A stretch of DNA of 64,000 bases from an uncultured Parvularculaceae bacterium (GCA_947259375.1 CAMYLZ010000026.1:45476-109475); one strand, 5' to 3'. Counted from the stretch's first letter, positions 1,067 to 20,833 are shown. Program-made: numbers and translations. The notes: generated from the letters alone by a model not told the origin.

Positions 1067-1584
1067 GGTGGCGATTCCTCAGCAATTGGGCTTTGCGTCT
1101 TTGGGTGGCGGGATTGTGTCCGTGGGTCTTTCGGCGTGGCGTCCTGCTGCTCCGGGGTGGTCGGTGCGATATTATAACTCAAATTGTGCGGCGCGGTAGC
1201 GGCCCCGTGTTAGCATCTTATTAACCAAAGTTTCGAGGTTGTTAATTTTGAATAGCATGTTGTTGCTAAATTGATACGCCATCAGAACATTCTGTCCGCC
1301 TCGCACGGCCACGAGTTGACGCCCCGAGCCCGGCGGAAATAGGTTTTATTAAAGGCGGGGGAACCGCCCATTTTGCCTAAGGCGCGAGAGCAAAGTGCGC
1401 CGAATTGATAAACGGCCTGTAGTGACGCCGGTTTTGTCGGGCCGCGGGCCATTTGTAGCGTACCGAAAAAACAGAATTCGATCGGGCGAGCCGTCAGCCA
1501 GGCGGCGTCTCCATCCGCCTGCAGTGAATGTTTTGCGTACCAGCTGCCGGCAGGTCGAAGGTTTCTTCTACACCGGAGGGTACA

Positions 1585-4500
1585 ATGAATAAAACGGATA
1601 TGACGAAACGCCTGCTTCGCACGACAGTGTTGTCAGGGATGGCGACCGTCCTATTGACGCCCGCCTTTGCCCAAGATGACGTGGAACAAGTGCCTGATGC
1701 GGCCGATGTGGCGGATGCGGAGACGGATGACACGATAGTGGTCACCGGTTCACGCTTGCGCAAGGACGCCTTTAACAGCCCATCGCCGTTGACGACCTTG
1801 GATATCGAATCCAACCGTCAGTTGGGCATCACTGATATTGGCGAGCTATTGACGCGGTCGGTGGTTTCAAGCGGCCAGCAGATTGACGGCACGCTGAACA
1901 CAAATGCCGGGAACTCGAACGCGACAGAAGCGCCGCCTGCTGGAGGCACCGGCTCATCGAACGTCAACCTTCGCAATTTGGGGCCGGAGCGGACGCTGAT
2001 TTTGCTCAACGGTCGTCGCCTTGGTTCGACCGGCGTGCGCGGCGCTCCATCGCAACCGGACTTGAACCTGATCCCGTTCACGCTTGTTGAGCGGGCTGAG
2101 GTCGTTACGGAAGCGGGCTCGTCAATTTATGGTGCGGACGCGGTGGCGGGCACCGTCAACCTCATCCTCAAGACGGATTTCGAGGGATTTGAAATTTTTG
2201 CTTCGGGCGATGTGCCGGAGCATGATGGCGGACGTCACTATCAGGTCGGCTTCATCGCCGGGGCTCAAGGCGATCGGGCGCGAATATTATTTGGCGGTGA
2301 GTATTCCGACCGCAATCGTGTTTCCGCAGGGCAGAGAGCGTTTTCAGCTTTTGAAACCGATATCGAAGTTGATGCGAATGGCAACATTTTCGATGCACCG
2401 ATCAATGGTTTCTTTGACAATAACGGATTTGACGAGAATTTCGACGTCATCTGTTACCAGCCAGGGGCCAATAACGGGACAGACCCGGCGGACTTTACCA
2501 ATTGCGGCAACCTGACGCCGCCGGCTGGTTTTGAAGATCTCGGCGACTCCAACTTTATTTACTTCCCGCAATACAATGACACATTCGAGCGTCAGCAAGC
2601 TGATTTGATACAGCCGCTCGAGCGATTGTCATTGTTGACGAATGGCGAAGTGGATCTCGATTGGTTCGGCACGAACAACCAGTTCTATTTTGAGGCGCTG
2701 TACACGAATCGGCAGCAATTTGTCCGTGGGGCGATTGAACAGATTTTCCCGACCGTTCCAGGTATGATTGATGTTCGAGATTGCGATCCTGGCGATACAA
2801 TTTGTCCAGGCGCGCCGGTGACCGGCCAAGTGGACAACCCACTCAACCCGTTTGACGGGTTCTTCATTCCAATTGTCACATTGGAAGACTTGCCTCAGAC
2901 ATTTGACGTGGAGTTGCAGCAAGTCCGTTTCGTGACCGGGATGCGCGGCGATATTCCGAGCGGTTGGTTCGGTCAGAATGAATGGACCTGGGACGCCTAT
3001 TTCTCATATGACCGCGGTACCGGTCACGTCGCCCAGCCGATCCTGTTCGAGCCGCATCTCGCGGCAAGCCTGAACTATTACATCAATGACGAAACAGGCG
3101 AGGTTGTTTGCGATCCAATTGCGCCAAACAGCGATGTCTTTGGTGTGACGACGCCAACGGACTGCGTCGTTTTTGATGCATTAAACCCGTCGATTTTCAC
3201 GGGCGGACCGAATGGCGACGGGGCTTTCTCGACGCAAGCTGAGAAAGACTATCTTGTCGGTAATCGGACGAACCGGACAGCGATCGAGCAATATATCGCG
3301 TCGGCCTTTGTTCAGGGGCGTTTGTTCAGCATCAAGGGCGGCGGCGACGTCGCGGCGGGCGTCGGCTTTGAGTATCGCAAGGACATTATCGATTCTCAAA
3401 ACAGCCTTGCCGGCGTCCTCGGCCTCAATGTTGCGGAAAACCCGGTTCCCGAAGGCAACACGATCGGCAATCGTAATTTCGTCGAGTTCTTCGGCGAAGT
3501 CGACATTCCGTTGATCGTCGGTCAGCCGGGCATCGAATTGCTGAATATTGATGGCGCTGTCCGTTATACGGATGAATCAAACTTTGGCAGCGACGTAACT
3601 TATCGTGGCCGATTGCAATATCGTCCGGTCGATTGGTTTGGAATTTCCGGCGGGTATGGCACCTCGTTCCGTGCGCCGAACCTGCGTGAACAATTCCTTG
3701 CCGATCAGGGCGGCGGCGTATCCGGCTTCCTTGACCCGTGTAATGCTGCCAACATCGCACAATCTGTGACTCAAAATGGCGATGGCGATCCGGATGTTCA
3801 GTTGGTCATCAACAACTGTATCGCAGATGGCGTGTCGTTCACCGATACGGATATGAACGGCAATCCGGACACGACCCTGCTCGGCTCTGCCGGTACGGTC
3901 ACCATTCCCACGACATCAGGCGGCAACTCGGATCTCGAGCCGGAAACATCGCGGACCTATACGATAACGGCCTCGATGAGCCAGCCATGGTTCGAAGGGT
4001 TCAATTTCGACCTGGTGGCGAGCTATTACGACATCAAGATCAAAAACTCGGTTGAGGAGCCTGGGGCGGGGTTGATCCTGGCGAATTGTTACAGCGATCC
4101 GGATTTCCCGGGCCTGACAAGCCCGTTCTGTTCGCTGCTGTCGCGTAATTCGGCAGCCGGGCCGGAAAGCCGGTTCCTGCGGAATATCGACCTTACCTTC
4201 TTCAATATTGGCGAGCTCACCGCACGCGGTATTGACATCAATTCGCGTTTCGACACCGACCTGCCGATAAAATTCAATGGCGAGCCGGTGAACTGGTCCT
4301 TGTCGACTGCAACATCATATGTTCTTGAGCAGGAACGCGAGCAGTTCGATCCAAGCGATCGTGACGATGATCTGAACGAGATCGGGTCGCCAAAGTTCCG
4401 GCTCAATGTCGACAACAAGCTGGTCTTCGGAGAGTTCTCGCTGATTTCCGAGCATCGCCGGATTGGTCGCCAGTTTGAGGATGTGACGGAATCCTTCCGC

Positions 4501-4752
4501 GACAACCCATTCTTCACGGGTATGCAGCTCACGCGCGACCTCGATTTCGTGGGGGCGGTCTGGTACCACGATGTCGCTGTTACCTGGACGCGCGACAACT
4601 ACTCATTCTCGGCAGGCGTCAATAATGTCGCCGACCGGGAGCCGCCGCTGATCGACAACTCGGAAGGGCCAAACAGAAACAACGCGGTTTCCTCGACTGG
4701 GTATGATTTCTTCGGCCGCACTTTCTTTGTAACGGGACGTGTTACGTTCTAA
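1585..4752 (+). CDS. TonB-dependent receptor
   Basis: ORF track starts at 1528, but ATG 1585 follows CGGAGGG and opens a signal peptide; IVVTGSRL TonB-box-like segment, plug and beta-barrel features, C-terminal F. Confidence 0.9.
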   Translation: MNKTDMTKRLLRTTVLSGMATVLLTPAFAQDDVEQVPDAADVADAETDDTIVVTGSRLRKDAFNSPSPLTTLDIESNRQLGITDIGELLTRSVVSSGQQIDGTLNTNAGNSNATEAPPAGGTGSSNVNLRNLGPERTLILLNGRRLGSTGVRGAPSQPDLNLIPFTLVERAEVVTEAGSSIYGADAVAGTVNLILKTDFEGFEIFASGDVPEHDGGRHYQVGFIAGAQGDRARILFGGEYSDRNRVSAGQRAFSAFETDIEVDANGNIFDAPINGFFDNNGFDENFDVICYQPGANNGTDPADFTNCGNLTPPAGFEDLGDSNFIYFPQYNDTFERQQADLIQPLERLSLLTNGEVDLDWFGTNNQFYFEALYTNRQQFVRGAIEQIFPTVPGMIDVRDCDPGDTICPGAPVTGQVDNPLNPFDGFFIPIVTLEDLPQTFDVELQQVRFVTGMRGDIPSGWFGQNEWTWDAYFSYDRGTGHVAQPILFEPHLAASLNYYINDETGEVVCDPIAPNSDVFGVTTPTDCVVFDALNPSIFTGGPNGDGAFSTQAEKDYLVGNRTNRTAIEQYIASAFVQGRLFSIKGGGDVAAGVGFEYRKDIIDSQNSLAGVLGLNVAENPVPEGNTIGNRNFVEFFGEVDIPLIVGQPGIELLNIDGAVRYTDESNFGSDVTYRGRLQYRPVDWFGISGGYGTSFRAPNLREQFLADQGGGVSGFLDPCNAANIAQSVTQNGDGDPDVQLVINNCIADGVSFTDTDMNGNPDTTLLGSAGTVTIPTTSGGNSDLEPETSRTYTITASMSQPWFEGFNFDLVASYYDIKIKNSVEEPGAGLILANCYSDPDFPGLTSPFCSLLSRNSAAGPESRFLRNIDLTFFNIGELTARGIDINSRFDTDLPIKFNGEPVNWSLSTATSYVLEQEREQFDPSDRDDDLNEIGSPKFRLNVDNKLVFGEFSLISEHRRIGRQFEDVTESFRDNPFFTGMQLTRDLDFVGAVWYHDVAVTWTRDNYSFSAGVNNVADREPPLIDNSEGPNRNNAVSSTGYDFFGRTFFVTGRVTF

Positions 4753-5560: not shown

Positions 5561-6247
5561 GAATTGTCCCTCCCGGCATCGATCTGCGAATTGCACATAG
5601 GTTTGGCGCCCAGCGCCGCATCTTCTTTCATTTCTCTGGGCGGCCCCATGGCAAAGGCTAACACCCAAATAATGATCGTTTTCGCTCAAATTTACAAGGA
5701 GTTAGGCGTGCGCGCGCCAATGATCGACGGCAGGAATCTGCGGTGATCCGGCGCATCGAACTTCCTGCACTGGGTTAGAAGGCGATCAGCGACGGGCTGG
5801 AGGAATTTGGTTCAGGCGGCTGCCTGTTCAGGCAGTCCTCACCATTCGATGACCAAAGGTGACAATCACGTTTTCGTGATTATGCGTTACCAATTTTGTG
5901 AAGTGAGACAAAAACCATCCGGATAAAGATTAAAAATCTGCTGAAAACAAAGGGATTAAAGTGATTTTTCGATCCTAAGTTTTCGGCAAAGTCCCATGTT
6001 GCGGATTGGCCACGGGGCATTCGTGAAAGCCGTTCAGGCCGGCGCGCCCGCGTTGACGGTTTTGTGTGCTCACACCTAGTCTCGCGAACATCGCAGGCTT
6101 TTTATTTAAGAATGAAAAACCGCGAGCTCTGCCCTGAGGGCTGGGTTACACCGACGCGGGGCGACCGCAAGTTTGAGTATCTGAGGGGTAAAGCGACTCT
6201 TTAACTTTCATCCAAAACAACAGTTAGTCAGAGTCCGGAGGACATTA

Positions 6248-9200
6248 ATGACCAAAACTATCCGATCTCGCGCTCTATTGGGCGCGGCCGTGGCGGCGCT
6301 CGCGCCGGCGGGACTACTGACAGCGACATCGGTGATTGCACCGGCCGCTGCTCAGGACTACACATCTGGTGGTATCGACGGGTATGTCGTCGACGCTGCG
6401 GGCAATCCGGTTGTGGGGGCAACGGTTGAGGTTACGTCTCAAGCGCAAGGCTTCTCGCGTACAGCGTCCACGTCAGGATCAGGCCAGTTTCGTTTCACAG
6501 GGTTGCCGCAGGGGCGTTACGACCTGCGTGTGACGTCAAGTGCGGGTTCAGCAACGCTTACCGACGCACGTGTTTCCGCCGGTACATCTTCGGATTACAA
6601 TATCGCGCTGGGTGCCGCCGGTGATGAAGTCGTCGTTACCGGTACACGCCAAAACCTTGACTTCGCGAATACCACAGTTGGCGTTAATATCGACCTGGAA
6701 GATCTGGTTAAAGAAGTTCCGATCGGCCGCGACATCACGTCTGTGACGCTTTTGGCCCCAGGCACTGTCCTCGGTGATTCCTCGTTTTCCTCACTGGCCA
6801 ATGGCGGCCAAAACTTGCCTGCGATCGGCGGTTCTTCGGTTGCGGAAAACGTTTATTATATCAATGGCCTGAACCTTACCAACTTTGATAACGGTCTCGG
6901 TGGCTCGATCGTGCCATTCGAGTTCTACAAGTCGGTCGAAGTTAAAACTGGCGGTTATCCTGCAGAGTTCGGTCGTGCGACGGGCGGTATCGTCAATGCG
7001 GTTACCAAGTCTGGTACAAACGAATGGAAGGGTGCAGTTCACCTGAACTGGTCGCCGGACGGGTTGCGTTCGGATTCGCCAGACACCAACGCCGCTGCTA
7101 ATCGTGCGGATGAAGCTGATCTCTTTGATGCGATCGTTGAAGTCGGCGGGCCGATCATTAAGGACCGCTTGTTTGTATACGGCCTCGCTGAATTCAATGA
7201 CAACCGCACAGTCAATGCTTCCAATCGTTCTAACAATGCGGTTGTTGACACTGCAGATGATCCGTTCTGGGGCATCAAAGTCGATGCATACCCCCATGAT
7301 GATCACCACTTTGAGTTCACTTATTTCGACACAGATAGGAAGACCACGCGTCAAGTATTTCCGTTTGATAGCGCCGATGGTAACAAAGTCGACACGGCGT
7401 TCGGAAATGCGTTGTCAACGACGCAATTCCGCAATGGCGGCGCGAGTTTTGTCGGAAAGTACACCGGCCAAATCAACGATTGGTTGACGGTTTCAGGTGC
7501 GTATGGTCAGAACGACGACCGTGGTGAACAGATTCCTGGCTCAAGCCTTTCTCGCGCCGCAGACGTTCGTTCTGGTTCAACAATTGAATTAAGCCCGAAC
7601 ACAACCACTAGCGTTACAGCCCCGCGCACGACAGAGCGTGAGTTTATCCGTGCGGATGTTGATGTGCTGTTCAGCCTGTTTGGCGATCACCATGTACGGG
7701 CAGGATTTGATAAAGAAAATCTGCAATTCAATCGAACGACCATCCGAAACGGTCCGTCCAATGGCCAATTCGGAGCCACGTATCCGGTAGACCCTGCGGG
7801 CAGCCTTCTCTTCGTCTATCGGACGGCCTCTGCAACTGATACCCGCATTGGCGGCACATCGCCGATCGTTGCCGGTGATGAGTATGTTGAACTCAACTAC
7901 TTCAATTCAGGCGGCTCTTTCTCGTCTGAAAATACCGCCTATTACATCCAGGATGAGTGGGATGTTACTGATCGGTTGACACTGAATCTTGGTCTTCGCC
8001 TTGATCAATTCAGCAACCGGACGGCCGATGGTTCGGAATTCGTCGATTTCAATAAGGAATTCGGACCGCGTCTCGGCTTCTCTTATGACGTCTTTGGTGA
8101 CGGCCGTACGAAGTTCTTTGGCAACTATGGCGTCTATTACCTACCTGTTGCTTCGAACACGGCCTTCCGTCAGGGTGCGCAGGAGTTTTTCTTCCGCGAA
8201 TTCTGGACATTTAGCGACATCGATGGCGACGGCGTTCCGACGCTCGACACCCAAATTACGGGTTTCTCGAGCGATACGGCATGTCCGTTTGGGCTAACTT
8301 CGGGAAGCTCGGGCAATGGCTGCCAGGTAACTGGTGATGGATCTGTTCAGGATCCGACAGCGTCAATCTCTCGCAATCTTGAAGCGACGAAGGAACGTGA
8401 GTTCCTTGTTGGTGTCGAGCATCAACTCAACGACCTCTGGACTGTTGGTGTTACCTATCTGCATCGCGATCTCGTTGCAACGGCTGAAGACGCTGCGGTT
8501 GATGATTACATCAATGCTTATTGTGATGACCCCGCAAATGGTGTTGATCAGAGCGTAACGGATTGTTCGTCAATTTGGTCTGGTTTCCACCAATATACGA
8601 TTATTAATCCGGGTAGCGCTTCAACAATCACATTCAACGAGTTGCTGCCGGGCGAATCTGAGCTGCGTACTGTGACGTTTACTGCAGATCAGCTTGGGTT
8701 CCCGAAAGCGACGCGTAAATATGACGCCATCCAGCTTTCGTTCAATCGCGCTTTTGACGGCAAGTGGAGCCTGCGTGGTTCCTACACCTGGTCGAACAGC
8801 CGCGGTAATACGGAAGGGTATGTCCAGTCTGACTTCGGTCAAACCGATGCGGGCATCACCCAGGACTTCGACAAGCTTGGCTTCCTGGATGGAGCTTTCG
8901 GCAAACTGCCGAACCACCGCGCACACGAGTTCAAATTGTGGGGCGGTTATCAGGTAACCGAACAATTCTCGGTTGGCTCGAATGTCTCTGTTCAGTCTCC
9001 GCGTAAGTTTGGTTGTTTTGGTTTGTACCCGCTTGACGGAGTGGGGCTCTTTGACGAGGCTTTGCGTTCGCCGGATGGTCCGGGTGTGGGTCTGAACCTT
9101 TATGGTGCAGCTTCGCACTATTGTACGGAAGCGGCGCTCGGCATCTCCGACGATGACACAACCAGCGTTCGCGTTCCGCGTGGAACGGGCCCCGACGGCG

Positions 9201-9427
9201 ATTGGATTGCCAACGTTGACGTTGCCCTACGCTATAATTTGGAATTGCCGACAGGCAATAACCTGACGCTTCGGGCTGACGTGTTCAACTTGTTCGCGTT
9301 TGATGGCGTGAACACACTTGACGAGTTTGGTGAAACGGGTGGCGGTTCCGCTCGTCCGGACTTCGGTACTCCGTTGACTTATCAGCGGCCGCGTTCGGTT
9401 CGGTTTGGTTTGGATATTGCTTTCTAA
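6248..9427 (+). CDS. TonB-dependent receptor, Oar-like with N-terminal carboxypeptidase-regulatory-like domain (paralogue 1)
   Basis: 1059 aa; signal peptide ending AAAQ, GYVVDAAGNPVVGATVEVTSQ (CarboxypepD_reg-like), plug EVKTGGYPAEFGRATGGIVNAVTKSGTNE; GGAGG RBS. Confidence 0.9.
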   Translation: MTKTIRSRALLGAAVAALAPAGLLTATSVIAPAAAQDYTSGGIDGYVVDAAGNPVVGATVEVTSQAQGFSRTASTSGSGQFRFTGLPQGRYDLRVTSSAGSATLTDARVSAGTSSDYNIALGAAGDEVVVTGTRQNLDFANTTVGVNIDLEDLVKEVPIGRDITSVTLLAPGTVLGDSSFSSLANGGQNLPAIGGSSVAENVYYINGLNLTNFDNGLGGSIVPFEFYKSVEVKTGGYPAEFGRATGGIVNAVTKSGTNEWKGAVHLNWSPDGLRSDSPDTNAAANRADEADLFDAIVEVGGPIIKDRLFVYGLAEFNDNRTVNASNRSNNAVVDTADDPFWGIKVDAYPHDDHHFEFTYFDTDRKTTRQVFPFDSADGNKVDTAFGNALSTTQFRNGGASFVGKYTGQINDWLTVSGAYGQNDDRGEQIPGSSLSRAADVRSGSTIELSPNTTTSVTAPRTTEREFIRADVDVLFSLFGDHHVRAGFDKENLQFNRTTIRNGPSNGQFGATYPVDPAGSLLFVYRTASATDTRIGGTSPIVAGDEYVELNYFNSGGSFSSENTAYYIQDEWDVTDRLTLNLGLRLDQFSNRTADGSEFVDFNKEFGPRLGFSYDVFGDGRTKFFGNYGVYYLPVASNTAFRQGAQEFFFREFWTFSDIDGDGVPTLDTQITGFSSDTACPFGLTSGSSGNGCQVTGDGSVQDPTASISRNLEATKEREFLVGVEHQLNDLWTVGVTYLHRDLVATAEDAAVDDYINAYCDDPANGVDQSVTDCSSIWSGFHQYTIINPGSASTITFNELLPGESELRTVTFTADQLGFPKATRKYDAIQLSFNRAFDGKWSLRGSYTWSNSRGNTEGYVQSDFGQTDAGITQDFDKLGFLDGAFGKLPNHRAHEFKLWGGYQVTEQFSVGSNVSVQSPRKFGCFGLYPLDGVGLFDEALRSPDGPGVGLNLYGAASHYCTEAALGISDDDTTSVRVPRGTGPDGDWIANVDVALRYNLELPTGNNLTLRADVFNLFAFDGVNTLDEFGETGGGSARPDFGTPLTYQRPRSVRFGLDIAF

Positions 9428-9446
9428 ATCGAGCTTTACGATACGG

Positions 9447-9476
9447 AAAAAGGCGGCCCTTGGGCCGCCTTTTTTT
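9447..9476. terminator. intrinsic terminator between convergent TBDR and TPR-sulfotransferase
   Basis: AAAAAGGCGGCCC-T-TGGGCCGCCTTTTTT; A and T tracts on both sides, could act bidirectionally. Confidence 0.8.
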
Positions 9477-9536
9477 GTCTTACTTTAGCTTAAACTCATT
9501 AAATTCTGGATTGTCCAAAAGCCAAGCTGATTTGGA

Positions 9537-11015
9537 TTAAATGCTTTCGTCAGTATAGGCGTCACGGAATGGTGCTAAGTGACTCTTGTAAGCGGCGGAA
9601 GCGCCGACTTGCCGCGTAGAGATGGGGTTGCGCACCTGTGCAACGCTCGCAGTCAATACGGGGCGCTTTTTTTGTTGATGAGGACGGAACACATCCGTTT
9701 CCCTGGGTAGGTCGACAAAATCTAGAATTCTTTCGATCCATGGTGTTGGGTCTGTGACAAGGTCTTCATAGGAAACGGTGAGAATACGGTCTGGAAATAG
9801 CCCAGACCAATGGGCGTGCAGCCTGTCATCACATTTGAAATAATGACCGATATCTTCGAGCGACCATGCCCATTTAATAGTCGAGGCGAAGTAATTTCGA
9901 AAACAGGATAGGGCTGTATCCTCGGGGTCGCGTCGCAACCAAACCACTTTGGCGTTCGGCATTGAGTGAAGGATAAGCCCCATGAATCGTGAGTGATTTA
10001 ATGTCTTATCCACAATCCGACCGTTGGGGCCGAATCGTTGAGTTAATAATTCGAGGTAATCGGATGCTAAAGCGCCCCATGGGTCGGGGGTGTTCTTTGC
10101 ACGGAGTTGGTATTTTATGGCTCCATCAAATGAGTAGTCTTGAGTGGGAATTAACGCCGCACGAAACAGATTTAATTCGGCTCCCCCTGAAACTTTTGAG
10201 TGGCTTGTAAGAATCTGTTCAACAAGTGTTGTTCCGGATCTGGGCAATCCCGTTACAAAAATCGGCCTGTCGCTCATGCAATGCGATGGCGTCAATTGGG
10301 TGAGGTTTTCTCGTGTGAAATCGCGGATCAGAGCGTTGGTGAAGTCGAAACGCTGATGTGCATCATATGGATATTCTATCCGTTTAAGGGCCGCGCCTTC
10401 GCTGAATGCTTGAAAGGCGACGTCGTAGTTTTCGCAGTCATGATGTGCTTTGCCAATTGCGTATAGGAACGGCGCATAGCTGCTAGCTGGCTGCCCATTA
10501 AATTTGGGGGCGAGTGTTTTAAGGCTCTCATAGTCGGCATCGCTGGGTGAAAAACGTTTGATCATGGCCAAGGCGAGCCAGTGCTGCCCCACCATGGGCG
10601 CTTGCTTTAATGTTTGACGAATATACCGCTCAGCAGCCTCAAACTCTCCAAGTTGCGTCGCAATTGCTCCTTGCAGATGTAAGATGGCGGTTTCATGGTT
10701 GCGGCCTTGCGGAGCCAAGCTTTCGATTTGCGCCAAACACTCTTCTACCCGTCCCCGGGTTGCAAGTTCGCTGCAATAGGCAAGGAATCGTTCCAATGTT
10801 ACTGGGCTGGTTGCCGCATAGCGGCGCATAGCTTCAATCGAGAGGTCGATCTCCCCCATACGGTCAGCTAGTCGCGCAATGCTCTTCCATTGTTCACCAG
10901 ATCCATATGTTTCTGCCAAATATCGCCGCAAACGTGCCGCGGCTTCGCGGCGTTCAAAAATACGAAGCTGGTCTACGGCTTCGTGAGCCAGGGTGCGCAT
11001 ATGGTTCTGAGCCAT
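9537..11015 (-). CDS. tetratricopeptide-repeat sulfotransferase (paralogue 1)
   Basis: N-terminal TPR-like repeats; RPIFVTGLPRSGTTLVEQILTSH (PAPS-binding 5'-PSB-like) and VVWLRRDPEDTALSCFRNYF (3'-PB-like). Confidence 0.88.
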   Translation of the reverse strand: MAQNHMRTLAHEAVDQLRIFERREAAARLRRYLAETYGSGEQWKSIARLADRMGEIDLSIEAMRRYAATSPVTLERFLAYCSELATRGRVEECLAQIESLAPQGRNHETAILHLQGAIATQLGEFEAAERYIRQTLKQAPMVGQHWLALAMIKRFSPSDADYESLKTLAPKFNGQPASSYAPFLYAIGKAHHDCENYDVAFQAFSEGAALKRIEYPYDAHQRFDFTNALIRDFTRENLTQLTPSHCMSDRPIFVTGLPRSGTTLVEQILTSHSKVSGGAELNLFRAALIPTQDYSFDGAIKYQLRAKNTPDPWGALASDYLELLTQRFGPNGRIVDKTLNHSRFMGLILHSMPNAKVVWLRRDPEDTALSCFRNYFASTIKWAWSLEDIGHYFKCDDRLHAHWSGLFPDRILTVSYEDLVTDPTPWIERILDFVDLPRETDVFRPHQQKKRPVLTASVAQVRNPISTRQVGASAAYKSHLAPFRDAYTDESI

Positions 11016-11613
11016 TCAAAATAAATTGGGAATGTTGATTTCAGACGGGGCAATTTACTTTTTACCTACAGAAGTGCGTTAATGGCGTCCAGCGTAGTTT
11101 CCGCTGCTTTGAGGCTAGTTAAGCGCTAGGCTGCGCCTGTGGTTCTGGATGAAATTGCGGCGTTCGCACAATTGCCCGTGAAGGGGCGAATCTAACGACC
11201 CAAAGTCTCGTTATATTCCTGGAAAGCAGCAGTCATCAGGAATTGACCTATTTGTTACCAGGTTTGGTGATGGTAATCCGGGAAGCGGTGCTGTCTTGAT
11301 GGCCAACGCGCTGTCGCCAACCGAGCGCGCTCAATACCCAAAGGTTGAATCTCTCGCGCTAGATTCTGTTGCGCATTTGACACGACTTGCTCGCGATAAC
11401 GTGATTCACGATTTCATCACATTGACGTGATCGGACGTTTGGACGTAGATATCCGATCTCTGCATGAAATTGTCAAAATCCACCATGCAGGCCTGACCCC
11501 GAGGACCGGCGAAATCCGGCGCGGGAAGAGCGTAACTTTTTGTATCTGAGGGGGCTGGGCGCCACTTTTTATCAATCAAAAAACTGCAGTTAGTCAGACT
11601 TCGGAGGGCAATA

Positions 11614-14600
11614 ATGACTAAGACTATCCGATCTCGCGCTCTATTGGGCGCGGCCGTGGCGGCGCTTGCGCCGGCAGGGCTCCTGACGGCGACATCGGTG
11701 ATCACACCGGCCGCTGCTCAGGATTACACGTCCGGCGCTATCGCCGGTACGGTCGTCGACGGTTCCGGCAACCCGGTTTCGGGCGCTTCCGTTTCGGTTT
11801 CATCCCAAGCGCAAGGCTTTACGCGCTCCGCAACGACAACGTCTGCGGGCGGTTTCCGTTTGTCGGGCCTGCCAGCCGGCTCTTATGATGTCAGCATTTC
11901 GTCTTCTGCCGGATCGACGTCCGAAGAAGGCGTGCGCGTCGCTGCGTCATCAACGTCGAACTACACGTTTGTCGTTGGCGCAGCCACAGGCGATGAAGTC
12001 GTCGTCACAGGCACGCGGAAAAACCTTGATTTCGCGAATACAACAACGGGCGTTAATCTTGATGTTGAAGACCTCGTTCGGGAAATCCCCATCGGCCGCG
12101 ATCTGACGTCCTTGACGCTGCTGGCGCCAGGCACAACCCAAGGCGATGATGGCTTTGGCAACCTTGCCTCGCTCGGCGGTGCGTCCGTTGCGGAAAACGC
12201 TTATTACCTTAACGGCCTGAACATCACCGATTTCAACAACTATCTCGGCTCCTCGCTGGTGCCGTTTGAGTTCTACAAGTCGGTTGAAGTGAAAACCGGC
12301 GGCTATTCGGCGGAATTCGGCCGCGCGACAGGCGGCGTTATCAACGCCGTGACCAAGTCGGGCTCGAATGAATTCGACGCCAAGCTGCATGTAAACTGGG
12401 AACCGGATGCGCTTCGCTCCGATTCGCCGGATACCTATTCGCAGCGCAATGCGCTCGATTCAGGGCGCAGCTTCGACATGATCGCCGAAGTCAGCGGACC
12501 GATTATTGAAGACCGGTTGTTTGTTTATGGCATCGTCGAGCTGAACGACAATGTTGACCGTGATTCCGGCATCCTTTCAGGAAACACGATTGTCGATACT
12601 CAAAAGAGCCCGTTCTTTGGCTTCAAAGTCGATGCCTATCCGATCGATAACCATCACCTTGAGTTCACCTATTTCGACTCAGACCGTAAAACCACGCGGA
12701 CGACATTCGACTTTGATACTGCAACCGACACGTCGGCGACAAACCCGAATGGATTGTCCGAATATCGATTTGGCGGTGAGAGTTTCGTTGGCAAATATAC
12801 CGGCGTTCTTACTGATTGGCTGACGATTTCTGCGGCCTACGGCAAGAACAATGATCGCAACGAACTGATTCCGTTGTTTGGCGACGCGGCAAAGCCATAT
12901 GTCGTCGACCTGTCGCTCGGCGGCGTGGTTTGCGGCTTCGGTAGCCTGTGTAACGGTCAAACAACGACGGTTGAAGACTTCCCGCAATACACGCAGCGTG
13001 AATTCTGGCGCGCCGACGCGGATATGTTCTTCAACTTCATGGGCGACCACCACGTTCGCATCGGATTTGACCGGGAAGAAAACCTCCTCGTTCATGATGG
13101 AACGCGTACCGGCGGCGGTGAATTTCCGCGTGCTTACATCTACCGGAACTGCGGTGGCTCGGCGCGATGCCAAGGGACCCCGGCGCTTGGGCCTAACGAC
13201 AACTATGTCGAGATCAACCACTACAAGACTGGCGGCGTGTTCGACTCCAAGAACATCGCTTACTACTTCCAAGATGAGTGGAATGTTACTGATCGCCTGA
13301 CGCTGAATCTCGGCGTTCGTCTCGATCAGTTCAACAACTTCACGGCCGACGGTTCTCAGTTTGTTGATTTCAACAATCTCTGGGCGCCGCGCGCCGGCTT
13401 CTCCTATGACGTCTTCGGCGATGGCCGCGGCCGTCTCTATGGTAACTTCGGTGTTTACTTCCTGCCGGTTGCGGGCAACACCGCTTACCGTCAGGGCGCT
13501 CAGGAGTATTACTTCCGTGAGTACTGGACGTTTACCGGCGCCGACGGTGACGGTATTCCGGTTCTCGGCGACCAGATGTTGAATTGGGCGGGCGGCAATA
13601 CCTGTCCGTACAATCTTGAGCCGACGTCAACAGGTGCGGGCACGTCGTCATGTAACGTGACTGGCGACGGTTCTGTCCAGGACCCGACATCGTCGATTTC
13701 GCGCAATCTGCGGGCGACCCGCGAGCGTGAAATCATCATCGGTTATGAGCATCAGCTGAACGATCTGTGGACGGTTGGCGTCAACTACACGCGCCGTAAT
13801 CTGCGCACGAATGCGGAAGACGTCGCGATTGACGCAGCGGTCATTGACTTCTGTAACGACCCTGCAAACGGCGTTGATCAGTCGACCACGGCTTGCTCGT
13901 CGATCTGGACTGGTTACCACCAGTACACGATCATCAATCCGGGCTTCGACTCGACGATCGTGCTCAATGAGCTCTTGCCGGGCGAAACCGAGCAGCGCAC
14001 GGTTGCGTTTACGGCTGACCAGCTTGGTTATCCGAAAGCGGAGCGCACCTATGACGCAGTCGAAGTCACCTTCGCGCGTGAATTCGACGGCAAGTGGAAC
14101 CTCAATGGTTCTTACTCGTGGTCGCAGGCCAAGGGTAATTCAGAGGGCTATGTCCAGTCTGACTTTGAGCAGGACGATGCCGGCATTACCCAGGACTTCG
14201 ACCAACCGGAGTTCACGGACTTTGCCTATGGCAAGCTCCCGAACCACCGCACGCACCGCATCAAATTGTGGGGTTCATATGCGGTGCTCGAGAACCTGAC
14301 AGTCGGCAGCCAGGTGCAAATTTCGTCGCCGCGGCCGTTGAGTTGTATTGGTTATCACCCGCTTGACCAATTCGGTGCTGGTGACTTCGTGAACCTCGCT
14401 AATGGTTACGGCGCCGCCTCGCGTTATTGCGGCGGTCAGCCTTCGCCGCGTGGTACAGCGCAAGAAACCGACTGGCTCTACAATATGAACGCTTCGGTGC
14501 GTTACAATATTGAGATCCCGTCAGGCCAGACGCTTACGCTGCGTGCCGACGTGTTCAACCTGTTCAACCTCGACGCTGTTCAGGGTCGTAACGAAACGGG

Positions 14601-14769
14601 CGAGAACGCTGAGCCGCTTGATGGCCTTGGCAACACGGTCGATTGGACGGCTGATGGCGTTTGCGATGCAAGTGAGCAAGCGGCCATCAACTGTAACCCG
14701 TATTATGGTCGGGCGACTTCCTTCCAGCAGCCGCGTTATGTGCGTCTGGGTGTGGACATCGATTTCTAA
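11614..14769 (+). CDS. TonB-dependent receptor, Oar-like (paralogue 2)
   Basis: 1051 aa, collinear with the 6248..9427 product, near-identical signal peptide; GGAGG RBS. Confidence 0.9.
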   Translation: MTKTIRSRALLGAAVAALAPAGLLTATSVITPAAAQDYTSGAIAGTVVDGSGNPVSGASVSVSSQAQGFTRSATTTSAGGFRLSGLPAGSYDVSISSSAGSTSEEGVRVAASSTSNYTFVVGAATGDEVVVTGTRKNLDFANTTTGVNLDVEDLVREIPIGRDLTSLTLLAPGTTQGDDGFGNLASLGGASVAENAYYLNGLNITDFNNYLGSSLVPFEFYKSVEVKTGGYSAEFGRATGGVINAVTKSGSNEFDAKLHVNWEPDALRSDSPDTYSQRNALDSGRSFDMIAEVSGPIIEDRLFVYGIVELNDNVDRDSGILSGNTIVDTQKSPFFGFKVDAYPIDNHHLEFTYFDSDRKTTRTTFDFDTATDTSATNPNGLSEYRFGGESFVGKYTGVLTDWLTISAAYGKNNDRNELIPLFGDAAKPYVVDLSLGGVVCGFGSLCNGQTTTVEDFPQYTQREFWRADADMFFNFMGDHHVRIGFDREENLLVHDGTRTGGGEFPRAYIYRNCGGSARCQGTPALGPNDNYVEINHYKTGGVFDSKNIAYYFQDEWNVTDRLTLNLGVRLDQFNNFTADGSQFVDFNNLWAPRAGFSYDVFGDGRGRLYGNFGVYFLPVAGNTAYRQGAQEYYFREYWTFTGADGDGIPVLGDQMLNWAGGNTCPYNLEPTSTGAGTSSCNVTGDGSVQDPTSSISRNLRATREREIIIGYEHQLNDLWTVGVNYTRRNLRTNAEDVAIDAAVIDFCNDPANGVDQSTTACSSIWTGYHQYTIINPGFDSTIVLNELLPGETEQRTVAFTADQLGYPKAERTYDAVEVTFAREFDGKWNLNGSYSWSQAKGNSEGYVQSDFEQDDAGITQDFDQPEFTDFAYGKLPNHRTHRIKLWGSYAVLENLTVGSQVQISSPRPLSCIGYHPLDQFGAGDFVNLANGYGAASRYCGGQPSPRGTAQETDWLYNMNASVRYNIEIPSGQTLTLRADVFNLFNLDAVQGRNETGENAEPLDGLGNTVDWTADGVCDASEQAAINCNPYYGRATSFQQPRYVRLGVDIDF

Positions 14770-14795
14770 TCGGTCCCAAAGTTACTGCGTTATGG

Positions 14796-14823
14796 AAAAG
14801 GCGGCCTTTGGGCCGCCTTTTTC
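14796..14823. terminator. intrinsic terminator between convergent TBDR and TPR-sulfotransferase
   Basis: AAAAGGCGGCC-TTT-GGGCCGCCTTTTT; very similar to the terminator at 9447. Confidence 0.8.
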
Positions 14824-14931
14824 TTTGTGCGCTGAGATTGAAACGCGCGAAGGTTTGTACGCATTCTAAAACCGGGCTATAAGAAAGCTCCGATTGTCAG
14901 TGTCGGCCGTCTTGCAGCTTCGGGCGCGCGG

Positions 14932-16401
14932 TTATTTTCCGTAATAAGCTTCCCTGAAAGGCCCCATGAATTTGTCATAAGCCTTCGCGGCGCCGACCTG
15001 CTTTGCTGAAATCGGCTGGCGAACCTGGGCTACGCTTGCGGTCAGTACAGACCGTTTTTCCTGCTTGTGCGGTTCAAAAGCGGCGCGTTCTTCTGATAGG
15101 CCGACATGGGCGAGGATTTTCGCGATCCATGGTTTCGAGTCGACGACAAGCTCTTCATATGGAATTGTTAAAATCCGGTCCGGATACGCATTTGCCCAGT
15201 GATTGAAAAGGGCGTCGTCTTTTTTGAAGTACCTGGCGATATCGGTCAGCGACCACGACCATGGCAGCGGCGATGCGAAATAGTTTCGAAACACCGAAAT
15301 CGCCGTATCGTCCGGATTGCGTCGCAGCCAAATGACCTTGGCGTGCGGCAATGCGTGCAATATCAGCCCCATAAAGCGTGAATGGTTCAGTGTTTTATCG
15401 ACGATACGGCCGTCCGGTCCGAACCGTTGATTTAGCATGGTCATATAATCTCTGCCGACGCTCCCCCATGGGTCGTCGCCAGAAGCGCTGCGTCCCTCAT
15501 AGGCGAGGGCGGCGTTCCAGGAAAAATCGCCCGCCGGCAAGAGCGCCGCGCGAAGGAGGTTTAACTCTGCGCCCCCGCTAACAGCTGAATGGCTGGTAAG
15601 GATTTGCTCGACCAGCGTCGTGCCGGAGCGCGGCAGTCCGGTGACGAATATCGGCCGCTGACTGTCACATTCCGACGGTGTCAATCGATTGAGGTTTTTC
15701 GGCGTGAATTCCGCGATCACCTGGTCGGCAAACTTGTCGCGCGCCGCGGCGTCAAAGGTTTCTTCAGTGCGCTTGACGTCCGCCCCGTCGCGATATGCTG
15801 CGAAGGCCCGGTCAAAATCCTTGATGTCGTGATAGGCTTTGCCAAGAGCATAGAAAAATGTCGCCTGACTGGTCGGCGGCGTTCCCCGAATTGAGCCGCG
15901 CAAGCGTTCCATTTCGTCAATATCAGGGTCGCCTTCGGTGAATTTCTTGATAACGGACAGGCCCAGCCAGTTTTGGCCTGTCAATGGAGACTGTTCGATC
16001 GTTTGGCGGTGCCATTGTTCGGCGCGATCAAATTCGCCGGTTTGCGTCGCCAGGGTCGCACGCAAATGGATGACGGCTGTGTGGTTTTGCACGCTCGTCG
16101 GGAGGCGATCAATTTCAGCCAGGCATTCTTTCACGCGACCATGCGTGGCCAGCTCGCTGAAATATTCCAGAGTTCGGTCAAGGGTCTGAGGCGGTGTGTG
16201 CGCATAGCGACGCATGGCTTCGACGGCAATATCGATTTCGCCAATCCGGTTTGCCAATGTAGTGACGCTGCGCCAGCTATCGCCGGGCTCCATTCGCTCT
16301 TTGAGGTGCAACCGCATGAAAGAAACGGCCGCATTGCGATCAAAACTGCGCAATGCGGCGATTGCTTCGTGGATTCGGGATTGAGGGGCGGAATGCTGCA
16401 A
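14932..16401 (-). CDS. tetratricopeptide-repeat sulfotransferase (paralogue 2)
   Basis: 489 aa, collinear with the 9537..11015 product; RPIFVTGLPRSGTTLVEQILTSHSAVSGGAELNLLRAAL. Confidence 0.88.
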   Translation of the reverse strand: MQHSAPQSRIHEAIAALRSFDRNAAVSFMRLHLKERMEPGDSWRSVTTLANRIGEIDIAVEAMRRYAHTPPQTLDRTLEYFSELATHGRVKECLAEIDRLPTSVQNHTAVIHLRATLATQTGEFDRAEQWHRQTIEQSPLTGQNWLGLSVIKKFTEGDPDIDEMERLRGSIRGTPPTSQATFFYALGKAYHDIKDFDRAFAAYRDGADVKRTEETFDAAARDKFADQVIAEFTPKNLNRLTPSECDSQRPIFVTGLPRSGTTLVEQILTSHSAVSGGAELNLLRAALLPAGDFSWNAALAYEGRSASGDDPWGSVGRDYMTMLNQRFGPDGRIVDKTLNHSRFMGLILHALPHAKVIWLRRNPDDTAISVFRNYFASPLPWSWSLTDIARYFKKDDALFNHWANAYPDRILTIPYEELVVDSKPWIAKILAHVGLSEERAAFEPHKQEKRSVLTASVAQVRQPISAKQVGAAKAYDKFMGPFREAYYGK

Positions 16402-16482: not shown

Positions 16483-17535
16483 TCAATTCGATATGCGGGG
16501 CGCGGGGTTGCGATGCGGCGCGCCGGGTTGCGGCGGCCGAAATGAACCCTGCCGCCAAAGCGCATTCGCGGGTTCTTCCGGGTCAGGTTCGGCAAAATTC
16601 AGGTAACCAAAGTATGTCGCGATGACGCGTTCTTCAATGTCGAATATCGCTTTGCGTCCATGCATGAACCGCGTGTTGTCTAGGACAATGATATCGTTCT
16701 TACACCAATCAATGGGTGCCGTGAGCCGGTCGCTGATTTCTTTGACCTTGGCCACTAACTCATTCGGAATGTGCTGGTTTCCATCAAACACCGGAAAGGT
16801 TGGCAGTCGCAAATAGTAACGCGCGAACAAGACAAAATTTCCGAAGGCGAGCGCATCGCTGAACATAGGTTTGTGCAGGGCCGGACGGCTGAAGCTGCGC
16901 GTTACGCCTCCCGGCGCCCGCGCGAAGGTGTAAGGGCATCCCGCGCGCGGATTGTTGATGGCTTGGTCGTTAGGGTTTTCGCGGCCGAGCCAATACGCGC
17001 AAACGGCGGGCGCCATGCGCTGCGTATACACCAAGCGCCGATTTTCGAATGCGCCGAACAGGTCGGAAGGCATTTGCCGAACAATCTCGATGCCGTCGCA
17101 AAGCGTAGTCTGGCCGCCTTCCCTGGGCGGGCTGACGCACCAGAAAAAACAAATATCCGGCTTCCATGGTTCTCGCGAGAGCTCGGGGTGCAGCGGAAAG
17201 GGATCGGCGCCGAAGTTGACAGTCTGGATATTGCGATCATTGTCGAGGAGCTTGCGATCGGGGCTTTCATTGAAAACGGAACTTGCGCAATATTGTGACG
17301 TGAGCGTCCGAAATCCATTCATTTCAACTGAAAAACCACGAAGCAGCATCGCGCCATGTGTCTTGTATGCCTGAATAAACTTGGATGACGGAATAGCCGA
17401 CGGGTTCTCGCCCTCGGTGGCGATAAAACAGGCATAGGGTTTTTCTGGGGAAGGTGCTGTAAACTCGATCATTCGATCACTAGGAGACAATTCGTCGCCC
17501 TGGCGACATGCCGGGCGATCCGGAGCGCCAATCAT
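16483..17535 (-). CDS. TauD/TfdA-family Fe(II)/2-oxoglutarate dioxygenase-like protein
   Basis: LHPELSREPWKPDICFFWCVSPPREGGQTTLCDG and DNTRFMHGRKAIFD, typical TauD-fold motifs; start codon uncertain (17535 or about 17472). Confidence 0.78.
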   Translation of the reverse strand: MIGAPDRPACRQGDELSPSDRMIEFTAPSPEKPYACFIATEGENPSAIPSSKFIQAYKTHGAMLLRGFSVEMNGFRTLTSQYCASSVFNESPDRKLLDNDRNIQTVNFGADPFPLHPELSREPWKPDICFFWCVSPPREGGQTTLCDGIEIVRQMPSDLFGAFENRRLVYTQRMAPAVCAYWLGRENPNDQAINNPRAGCPYTFARAPGGVTRSFSRPALHKPMFSDALAFGNFVLFARYYLRLPTFPVFDGNQHIPNELVAKVKEISDRLTAPIDWCKNDIIVLDNTRFMHGRKAIFDIEERVIATYFGYLNFAEPDPEEPANALWRQGSFRPPQPGAPHRNPAPRISN

Positions 17536-17589
17536 GGCATAATCAAGCCGGAAAGAACAACAACCACACGCACCAACGGATTGAGACGA

Positions 17590-18633
17590 ATGATGCAGAT
17601 CAAGGAATTGTTCGAACGGCCCGACAAGTACTTGTTAGCGTTTGAAGATGCGCAAGGTGTTTTTGTGGACATGGACCGGGAGGCCTATAACCGGTCTATT
17701 TTTTGCGACATGCGCATCTCGCCAAAGTCAAAACAGGCTTTGAAAATTGCGATTGCGCCGCTGTGTGAATTTCATGAAAAAAACGTCCAGGCAATGCCCA
17801 GGGTGAGTTTCATTTTCCACGTTGCTCATTGCGGCTCGACGCTGTTGGCGCGGGCATTGGATTTAAAAGAAAGAAGCATTGTATATCGCGAACCGTTGAC
17901 TCTTCGCCAGCTTGCTGTGGAGCGCGCTAGCGCCGGTTTCAAAACGCCTCAGGACTGGGATAGAAGGACGCGATTGGCCGTTCAATTGTTGGATCGCCGA
18001 TATTTTGACGGCGGCCCCGCGATTGTTAAGGCGAATGTTCCTGTAAATTTTATCATTTCAGATCTGTTGGACATTACGCCAAGCCAGCCGTCGATCGTGC
18101 TTTACTTTCCACTTGAACACTATCTCTTGGCGGTTCTGCGTTCGCCCAATCACAAGAAATGGGTCGCGAGCGTCGTTACGGAAATGCAGCACGAAATCAA
18201 AAAGCGGGCGCCGCTCGATAAGAAACTCAGCATTGCGCAAGCCGCAGCGGCGCTGTGGTGGGCGCAAATTAAAACTTTTCACGAAGTGATGCTGACCCAT
18301 CCGACGGTCGCCAGTCTCAACGCTGAGGACTTGTTTGACACGCCGGAGCGGGCGCTTGGGGGTGCGTTCAACCACATGCAGGTAGAGCACACCGATGAGG
18401 AGATTTGCGGTATTGTCCGAGGAGACCTGTTCTCCAAATATTCCAAGAACCCTAGCGTGGACTTCAACAATGCATCCAGGTTGGCAAGGCGAGCTGCGCT
18501 CAAGGACAGCTTGGTCCGAGAGATAGAGGAAGCGCGCTCCTGGATTGCGAACGCGACAGCGGCGGATCCGCTGCCGGCGCGCTTGGGCCGGTCGCTTGTT
18601 GGGGAAGGACCGGAATTGTTGATGCAGATTTAG
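17590..18633 (+). CDS. sulfotransferase-like P-loop protein
   Basis: SFIFHVAHCGSTLLARALD resembles the PAPS-binding P-loop; ATG ATG at 17590. Confidence 0.6.
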   Translation: MMQIKELFERPDKYLLAFEDAQGVFVDMDREAYNRSIFCDMRISPKSKQALKIAIAPLCEFHEKNVQAMPRVSFIFHVAHCGSTLLARALDLKERSIVYREPLTLRQLAVERASAGFKTPQDWDRRTRLAVQLLDRRYFDGGPAIVKANVPVNFIISDLLDITPSQPSIVLYFPLEHYLLAVLRSPNHKKWVASVVTEMQHEIKKRAPLDKKLSIAQAAAALWWAQIKTFHEVMLTHPTVASLNAEDLFDTPERALGGAFNHMQVEHTDEEICGIVRGDLFSKYSKNPSVDFNNASRLARRAALKDSLVREIEEARSWIANATAADPLPARLGRSLVGEGPELLMQI

Positions 18634-18637
18634 CGGT

Positions 18638-19171
18638 TCAATCTTGTAGCGCCGCTTCGCTATCCAACACTGCGGCAGCTGCATTAACGCTTGCGGCTAT
18701 TCTGAGCGCGGCCTGGACCTGGTCAGCGGAAAGCCCGCCTTTGCGAACGACTTTCTCGTGTGAATCTAGGCACATGCCGCATCCATTGATGGCTGAAACG
18801 GCAAGCGACCATAATTCAAAATCGACCTTATCGACGCCAGGATTAGCAATGATGTTCATGCGCAGCTTTGCCGGCATGGTTGCGTAATTCTTATCACTCA
18901 TCAGATGCGTCGCACGGTAATAGACGTTGTTCATTCCCATGATCGCGGCGGCGGCTTTGGCGGCAGTCGCGGCTTCCGGCGACAGCTTTAAAAGCGCTTC
19001 GTCCGCAATAGCTTTGGTCACCGTCCTGTTCCCAGCGGTGAGGGCGGCCGCGAGAAAAGTCCCCCATTTTTGTTGCTCGGTGAGGGTGGTTTCGGATGCG
19101 AGCGTGCCTAGATTCAGGCGGATATCCTTGGCGTAATCCGGTATCTTGTTGCGAAGTTCGTCGATGCTCAT
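18638..19171 (-). CDS. ahpD: alkylhydroperoxidase AhpD / carboxymuconolactone decarboxylase family
   Basis: [21 protein letters not shown]...[18 protein letters not shown] (CxxC AhpD motif); ORF trimmed to the ATG at 19171. Confidence 0.92.
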
Positions 19172-19195
19172 GGCAATTCTCCTGACAACTGGATG

Positions 19196-19240
19196 CAAAA
19201 AGGGCGCGGCGGCGCATTCACGGCCGCGCGCGCCCTTCTG
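19196..19240 (-). terminator. GC-rich hairpin with T run (minus strand) between ahpC and ahpD
   Basis: minus strand GGGCGCGCGCGGC...GCCGCCGCGCCCTTTTT. Confidence 0.6.
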
Positions 19241-19251
19241 GTGTTCGTGTT

Positions 19252-19797
19252 TTAGAGCGTATCGCCGCCAACCGGACGATTGCAGGCGCAAAGCTCGTCA
19301 GTTTGCAGACCATCAAGAACGCGGAGCGTTTCCTGGGGATTACGGCCGACATTGAGCCCGTTGACTGTCACATGTTGAATGACATTGTGCGGATCGACCA
19401 GGAACGTCGCGCGCAGCGCCACGCCTTCCGGCGCACGAATGCCGAGCCCATCCACCAGCGATCCGGTCGTGTCGGCGAATTGCCAAGCTGGGTGCTTGTC
19501 GAGATCGGGGTGGTCGCGACGCCAGGCGAGTTTGCAGAACTCGTTGTCGGTGCTGCCGCCTAAAACCACGGCGTCGCGATCTTCGAACTCTTTCGCGAGC
19601 CGGCCGAATTCAGCGATCTCCGTTGGGCAAATGAAGGTAAAGTCTTTCGGATAGAAATAGATGACTTTCCATTTCCCCTGAAAGCTGTCTTGCTTAATCT
19701 CTTCGAAAGCAGATTCGCCATTTTCTTCATGGGTGTTGAAGCCCGGTTTAACACCGACAACCGAAAAATCGGGAAGTTTGTCGCCGACGCCTAGCAT
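19252..19797 (-). CDS. ahpC: peroxiredoxin AhpC
   Basis: [17 protein letters not shown] peroxidatic Cys motif; resolving Cys near [14 protein letters not shown]. Confidence 0.93.
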
Positions 19798-19882
19798 GCG
19801 TGTCTCCTTTAAATATCAATTTGAAATCTCGGCGACCCTCAGGATCGCGCGCCTTACATACCGCGCTTGGAAAATTAATCAA

Positions 19883-19920
19883 ATAGATTATATTTCTATA
19901 ATAAATCGATTATTCCGATT
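19883..19920. promoter_or_regulatory. two adjacent dyads in the ahpC-oxyR divergent region, candidate OxyR site
   Basis: ATAGA-N7-TCTAT (19883-19899) and AATCG-N7-CGATT (19904-19920), centres 21 bp apart. Confidence 0.45.
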
Positions 19921-19936
19921 AAATGAGAGATCCTGA

Positions 19937-20833
19937 ATGACCCCCTTGCCAACCTTGCGTCAGCTCCAGTTTTTTATGGCTTTGGTGCGCCGGCAATCCT
20001 TTTCGAAGGCTGCCGAAGATTGCCTTGTTTCTCAATCCACGCTGTCTTCGGCAATCAAGGAAATGGAAGCGCTGATGGACCAGCAGCTGGTTGATCGCTC
20101 GACGCGCTCTTTTGCGTTGACGCCCGCGGGCGAAGAGGTTGCGGTTCGCGCGCCGGCGTTGCTCGCCGGGGCGGAAGATCTGGTGCGTTCGGCGAGCGGT
20201 CGCCGGCCGCTAGAGGGGCCGTTCACCCTCGGTGTTATTCCGACGATAGCGCCATTTGTCTTGCCGCAGGCCGCGAGAGCGTTGAAAGCCGCTTATCCGA
20301 AATTGCAGCTTTATCTTCGTGAAGATTTGACGGCGACCCTGGCGGAGCGCTTGAGCGCGGGGCTTATCGATGCTGCAATCCTTGCATTCCCTTATGAACT
20401 GCCCGGCATTGAGTCGATTGAAATTGGCGAAGATCCATTTTGGTTTGCTTGTTCGCCGGACCATCCGCTCGCAGATAGAAAATTGTTGAAAAGAGGCGAC
20501 CTTGTAGGGTGCGAGTTGCTATTACTCGAAGACGGTCATTGTCTTCGCGAGCATGCAATTGACGCTTGCGAGTTGCGTGATCGCGATGCGGCGGCGGCGT
20601 TTGGCGGCACCAGCCTTTTTACATTGGCGCAAATGGTGAAGTCAGGCCTCGGCGTGACGCTTTTGCCGGATATGGCTGTGCGCGACGGGTTGGCGAAAAC
20701 TGCCGAATTGACGGTTGTGCCGTTTTGCGACCCGGCGCCCGCACGCAGGATCGGCGTCGCATGGCGGCGCGGTTCCGGGCGGCGTGAAGAGGCGAGTGCG
20801 CTTGCTGAAACGATCAAGTCGACGATGTCTTAG
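19937..20833 (+). CDS. oxyR: LysR-family peroxide regulator OxyR
   Basis: N-terminal LysR HTH (LRQLQFFMALVRRQSFSKAAEDCLVSQSTLSSAIKEME); LLLLEDGHCLREHAIDACEL carries the OxyR Cys pair; divergent from ahpC. Confidence 0.88.
   Translation: MTPLPTLRQLQFFMALVRRQSFSKAAEDCLVSQSTLSSAIKEMEALMDQQLVDRSTRSFALTPAGEEVAVRAPALLAGAEDLVRSASGRRPLEGPFTLGVIPTIAPFVLPQAARALKAAYPKLQLYLREDLTATLAERLSAGLIDAAILAFPYELPGIESIEIGEDPFWFACSPDHPLADRKLLKRGDLVGCELLLLEDGHCLREHAIDACELRDRDAAAAFGGTSLFTLAQMVKSGLGVTLLPDMAVRDGLAKTAELTVVPFCDPAPARRIGVAWRRGSGRREEASALAETIKSTMS

Follow-up and report, generated by a model that had tools for sequence, protein, structure and literature searches.

Recurrent pairing of Oar-type TonB-dependent receptors with TPR-sulfotransferases in Caulobacterales and Sphingomonadales, and candidate substrates of the enzyme

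The window, a 64,000 nt stretch of DNA from an uncultured Parvularculaceae bacterium, carries two Oar-type TonB-dependent receptors (TBDR), TB1 and TB2, each convergent with an open reading frame for a TPR-sulfotransferase (TPR-ST), ST1 and ST2 respectively (Table 1). All four open reading frames were found where an earlier note on this DNA had placed them. Pfam domains of both receptors are CarboxypepD_reg, Plug and OMP_b-brl_4/TonB_dep_Rec. TB1 and TB2 share a 61% identity, and ST1 and ST2 55–57%. Similarity of the two units at the nt level (blastn) starts 97 bases 5′ of each receptor start codon and continues through both genes. The first 30 codons of TB1 and TB2 (positions 6248–6340 and 11614–11706) show a 91% nt identity, compared with approximately 65% elsewhere; possible causes are gene conversion confined to this stretch and selection acting on the signal peptide.

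Table 1. Features of the doubled receptor/sulfotransferase locus (window coordinates).
Feature	Position	Strand	Description and basis
TB1 start-proximal upstream stretch	6151..6247	+	common to TB2 (11516–11613); blastn between units
TB1	6248..9427	+	Oar-type TBDR, 1059 aa; signal peptide, CarboxypepD_reg, plug, 22-strand barrel; Pfam, AlphaFold, Foldseek
TB1/ST1 terminator	9452..9474	.	two-way intrinsic terminator common to both genes; motif search; kept in G010, G026, G019, G007
ST1	9537..11015	-	TPR-ST, 492 aa; Pfam TPR + Sulfotransfer_3; AlphaFold; fold matches
TB2	11614..14769	+	second Oar-type receptor, 1051 aa, of a separate receptor lineage; nearest relative G007_C7b
TB2/ST2 terminator	14800..14822	.	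common to both genes, near-identical to the TB1/ST1 terminator; motif search
ST2	14932..16401	-	second TPR-ST, 489 aa; TTG start at 16401 (uncertain); Pfam TPR + Sulfotransfer_3

The sequence GGCGGCC-(4 nt)-GGCCGCC followed by a T-run is present in both receptor/enzyme gaps, where shuffled sequences give an expectation of 0. There are only three such sites in the whole 3.2 Mb genome, i.e. the two gaps and one elsewhere. The terminator is also found at the equivalent position in the sister genomes G010, G026 and G019, and in a fourth, G007, by BLAST. Thus the claim that nearly the same terminator separates receptor and enzyme in both pairs holds, and extends to the sister genomes. Since the terminator is rare genome-wide and its position is kept, the pairing with its terminator is old and not a product of chance.

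These four congeners display a single convergent receptor/ST pair at the syntenic locus, which is flanked by an alpha/beta-hydrolase gene on one side and by an ahpC/ahpD/LysR block on the other, although not every genome has all of these genes. Compared with the sister loci, the window has in addition the second pair, a further TBDR (1528–4752) and an insertion consisting of a TauD/TfdA dioxygenase gene (16483–17535) and a divergent open reading frame (ORF17581, positions 17581–18633). The latter has no Pfam hit but shows a sulfotransferase-like motif, HCGSTLLARAL. The TauD/ORF17581 divergent pair is also found in G007, G093 and G081 with identities of 54–56% and 40–43%, and in G081 it adjoins two to three tandem TPR-STs. 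As it forms a divergent pair of its own elsewhere (G007, G093) and is absent from the sister loci, it was rejected as a third part of the module. Downstream of the module (18638–20833) are AhpD, an AhpC-like peroxiredoxin and a LysR regulator, a peroxide-defence-like block that is syntenic in G007 and G010.

Both TB1 and TB2 contain, above cut-off, an N-terminal PF13620 CarboxypepD_reg extension followed by Plug PF07715, the combination that defines the Oar subclass (PMC6434023). The AlphaFold model of TB1 has a mean pLDDT of 82, its Foldseek matches are all TBDRs, and its strands, counted by hand from the DSSP line, are consistent with a 22-strand TBDR barrel. Myxococcus xanthus Oar, which shares the PF13620 extension, plug and 22-strand barrel, is needed for secretion of PopC (PMC6434023); in contrast to TB1 and TB2, no paired TPR-ST is mentioned in the available portion of that paper.

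The earlier note had proposed that the whole unit was duplicated in tandem. The collinear units and the common terminator are in keeping with this, but the relationship of the receptors is not. With the receptors of G026, G019 and G010, TB1 shares 71–76% identity, more than with TB2 (61%), and in receptor trees TB1 groups with these three while TB2 groups with G007_C7b, a receptor situated about 50 kb from the G007 pair and with no adjoining ST. A sister grouping of TB1 and TB2 is rejected (AU p = 1e-49), which rules them out as mutual nearest relatives. In the ST tree neither ST1 and ST2 as sisters (p = 0.14) nor ST2 with the G007/SAT22 enzymes (p = 0.44) is rejected. A recent in-place duplication of one pair could draw on the layout, the terminator, the ST1/ST2 result and the unusually similar 5′ ends of the receptors, but with TB1 and TB2 rejected as sisters and TB2 paired with G007_C7b it is highly improbable. 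TB1 and TB2 are old, separate receptor lineages. The doubled module is therefore no recent tandem copy; either it is old, or two receptor lineages contributed to its assembly.

The AlphaFold model of ST1 (pLDDT 93.7) gives Foldseek matches of which the top 13 in the PDB are all TPST1/2 or tick TPST, i.e. protein-tyrosine sulfotransferases, with small-molecule sulfotransferases lower in the list. Human and tick protein-tyrosine sulfotransferases are also the closest solved structures by sequence. Five residues, R259, E280, K337, R362 and S370, show no variation among 29 relatives and align with TPST2 R78, E99, K158, R184 and S192, which bind PAPS or act in catalysis. The 5′ and 3′ phosphate-binding motifs and the catalytic Glu/Lys are all present. 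By sequence as well as by fold, the catalytic domain is nearest to protein-tyrosine sulfotransferases, and its catalytic residues are intact. The small-molecule enzymes lower in the fold list, and the varied acceptors of Sulfotransfer_3 enzymes as a group, count against a protein acceptor.

Bacterial RaxST is a comparison system of the protein-tyrosine sulfotransferase type, and RaxX is sulfated before export. ST1 resembles TPST1/2 and RaxST in the Sulfotransfer_3 fold and in the alignment of catalytic and PAPS residues, but differs in its added TPR arm, in being cytoplasmic, and in having Asn282 in place of the substrate-side Arg101 of TPST2. The TPR arm matches the TPRs of O-GlcNAc transferase, which recognises polypeptides through its TPR arm; there too a TPR superhelix is joined to a transferase acting on proteins, although the catalytic fold and the donor are unrelated. 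The genome encodes a CysC-type APS kinase domain within a 634 aa frame, thus PAPS can be made in this organism.

A second TBDR/TPR-ST arrangement is present in the same genome (G000:C32:209977–214674). Here a 685 aa TPR-ST lies directly downstream of an 871 aa receptor, termed TBDR871. As in the window pairs, a TBDR is found beside a TPR-Sulfotransfer_3 enzyme; however, the receptor belongs to a different TBDR family that does not have the CarboxypepD_reg domain, the TPR arm is longer, and the two genes are always co-oriented with the enzyme second. Across 200 genomes, a TPR-ST adjoins 59 of 61 Caulobacterales hits to TBDR871, always downstream and co-oriented. The two exceptions are G012, where each gene lies close to the end of a separate contig, and G188, an incomplete genome. 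In the organism's own genome a BCCT-family transporter gene follows the TPR-ST (L058:6365–12675). The strongest case for an enzyme in the service of the receptor comes from this finding, as two unrelated receptor families are each accompanied by a partner of one and the same enzyme class.

The earlier note had called for a search of conserved neighbourhoods, with lack of recurrence as grounds for abandoning a receptor/enzyme link. Recurrence was found, with 18 adjacent pairs of Oar receptor and TPR-ST in 17 genomes. Twelve are convergent (the two of the window, G010, G026, G019, G007, G190, G317, G321, G342, G275 and the Sphingomonas SAT22 MAG), three divergent (G461, G444, G455) and three co-oriented (G423, Hephaestia, Sphingomonas UV9). 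Since related bacteria repeat the pairing in different layouts, the enzyme is likely to act in the service of the receptor. In G190, G317 and G275 (L194, L195, L224) the ST immediately follows, in the same orientation, a gene for an S49-family peptidase of the signal peptide peptidase SppA type (Pfam check in L194 only).

At the genome level, 398 Caulobacterales genomes were surveyed for the receptor (E ≤ 1e-60) and for a close ST (>300 bits). All 21 genomes with a close ST carry the receptor against a base rate of 58/398 (hypergeometric p = 7e-20, ignoring relatedness). Within Brevundimonas the ST is mostly unlinked to the receptor, and all 20 ST genomes carry the receptor (base rate 40/131; p = 7e-13, relatedness again ignored). 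Within the window's genus the receptor and the close ST are each found in five genomes, and these are the same five; several other genomes with only distant TPR-STs have no Oar receptor. These distant enzymes of about 474 aa adjoin other genes and were rejected as partners. The reverse dependence does not hold, as 37 of the 58 receptor genomes have no close ST; thus the receptor does not need the enzyme.

On the receptor tree, at least 8 changes of ST label are needed even when only well-supported branches are counted. The SAT22 receptor and ST each group with their G007 counterparts in the respective trees, thus the pair crossed orders as a unit; in keeping with a genuine sphingomonad contig, the SAT22 clpB shares 87% identity with its Hephaestia counterpart. 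In Sphingomonadales two pairs (L061, L072) adjoin clpB in different arrangements, suggesting an insertion hot-spot. In G423 (L268) an ST of the Brevundimonas ST clade is adjacent to a receptor of another lineage, as though one receptor had replaced another next to an unchanged enzyme; the match between receptor and enzyme is thus not one-to-one. Receptor and enzyme distances correlate (Mantel r = 0.84 for adjacent and 0.92 for unlinked genes), a result that is confounded by species relatedness and is not proof of partnership.

Recurrent adjacency in three orientations and strict co-occurrence in independent lineages, together with the second, independent TBDR/TPR-ST operon, strongly support the dedicated receptor-sulfotransferase partnership that had been suggested from the window alone. 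It could be argued that there is no functional link, and that the two genes enter the same insertion hot-spots and stay in company through chance or joint transfer. The pairs of Caulobacteraceae lie in one conserved island, those of Sphingomonadales adjoin clpB in two cases, and much of the co-occurrence is inherited. But such an explanation is quite improbable given the several unrelated sites and three orientations, the repeated label changes on the receptor tree, the conserved shared terminator, and the fact that unlinked STs still occur only with the receptor.

The preferred reading is that each pair consists of an outer-membrane TBDR of Oar architecture and its own cytoplasmic TPR-ST, which would use PAPS, recognise a polypeptide via the TPR arm, and transfer sulfate by a catalytic domain built like that of a protein-tyrosine sulfotransferase. 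The protein sulfated would be one tied to the partner receptor, either the receptor chain or a peptide that uses the receptor; we place the probability of this at about 0.4. Computation shows the conserved partnership, the TPST-like fold and catalytic residues, the TPR arm and a gene for making PAPS; enzymatic activity and a protein acceptor are predictions. The first and likelier candidate substrate is the receptor chain, which would be sulfated in the cytoplasm before Sec export and would then carry a fixed negative charge on an extracellular loop or on the periplasmic N-terminal domain. The second is a secreted peptide that would pass through the receptor.

The receptor chain as putative acceptor gains support from the neighbourhoods examined, as no third conserved gene was found across them. 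It is weakened by the fact that most Oar receptors do without the enzyme and that no acceptor residue is singled out. Residues separating receptors with ST from those without were sought, and none was significant on the tree, where there are only 6 independent pairs. Candidates such as D288 and the F780-H781-Q782 stretch (extracellular loop 8 by strand counting) were set aside on this ground. The conserved tyrosines of the receptors show roughly the same conservation in the absence of an ST. The wider proposal is of a bacterial system for sulfating outer-membrane proteins, in which dedicated cytoplasmic TPR-STs covalently modify the receptors they are paired with ahead of export. It would embrace two or more unrelated receptor families, in Caulobacterales and for the Oar type also in Sphingomonadales, and is tentative and rather doubtful.

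By analogy with Myxococcus Oar and with RaxX, the receptor might instead serve to export or display a peptide or protein that is sulfated and encoded elsewhere in the genome. In favour of this, the PF13620 plus plug architecture matches that of a TBDR shown to support protein secretion (PMC6434023), and the TPST-like enzyme is fused to TPRs. This is improbable, as no conserved small peptide gene was found in the intergenic DNA between receptor and enzyme, where only the terminator is conserved, nor a conserved small open reading frame or secreted-protein gene in or beside the pairs, and as an N-terminal domain of Oar type is missing from the other TBDR family that is paired with a TPR-ST.

It is also conceivable, although on balance unlikely, that the enzyme sulfates a small molecule (e.g. 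a phenol, a sterol-like compound or a siderophore) imported by the receptor or exported through it as a metabolite, which would trap, detoxify or mark the compound. TBDRs usually import small ligands, the 22-strand barrel of the model matches siderophore receptors, and many cytosolic sulfotransferases, including those lower in the fold list, act on such substrates. However, the neighbours of the pairs differ between sites, and no gene for biosynthesis, catabolism or inner-membrane transport is recurrent among them; the closest folds are protein sulfotransferases, the enzyme is fused to a protein-binding TPR arm, and a TBDR delivers only to the periplasm.

A literature search, with subscription papers and preprints outside its scope, found no paper joining TBDRs and TPR-sulfotransferases and no description of the TBDR871/TPR-ST operon; because of this scope the novelty is provisional. 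TPR-STs are abundant in alphaproteobacterial genomes, and no assigned substrate was found for them. The strict partnership with two receptor families offers a concrete, testable candidate substrate for these enzymes. An enzyme serving the receptor would, if true, be an undescribed use of sulfation in bacteria. If the receptor itself is sulfated, this would represent a novel type of modification of outer-membrane proteins, one that could modulate the binding of ligands, recognition by phages or bacteriocins, or the export of proteins.
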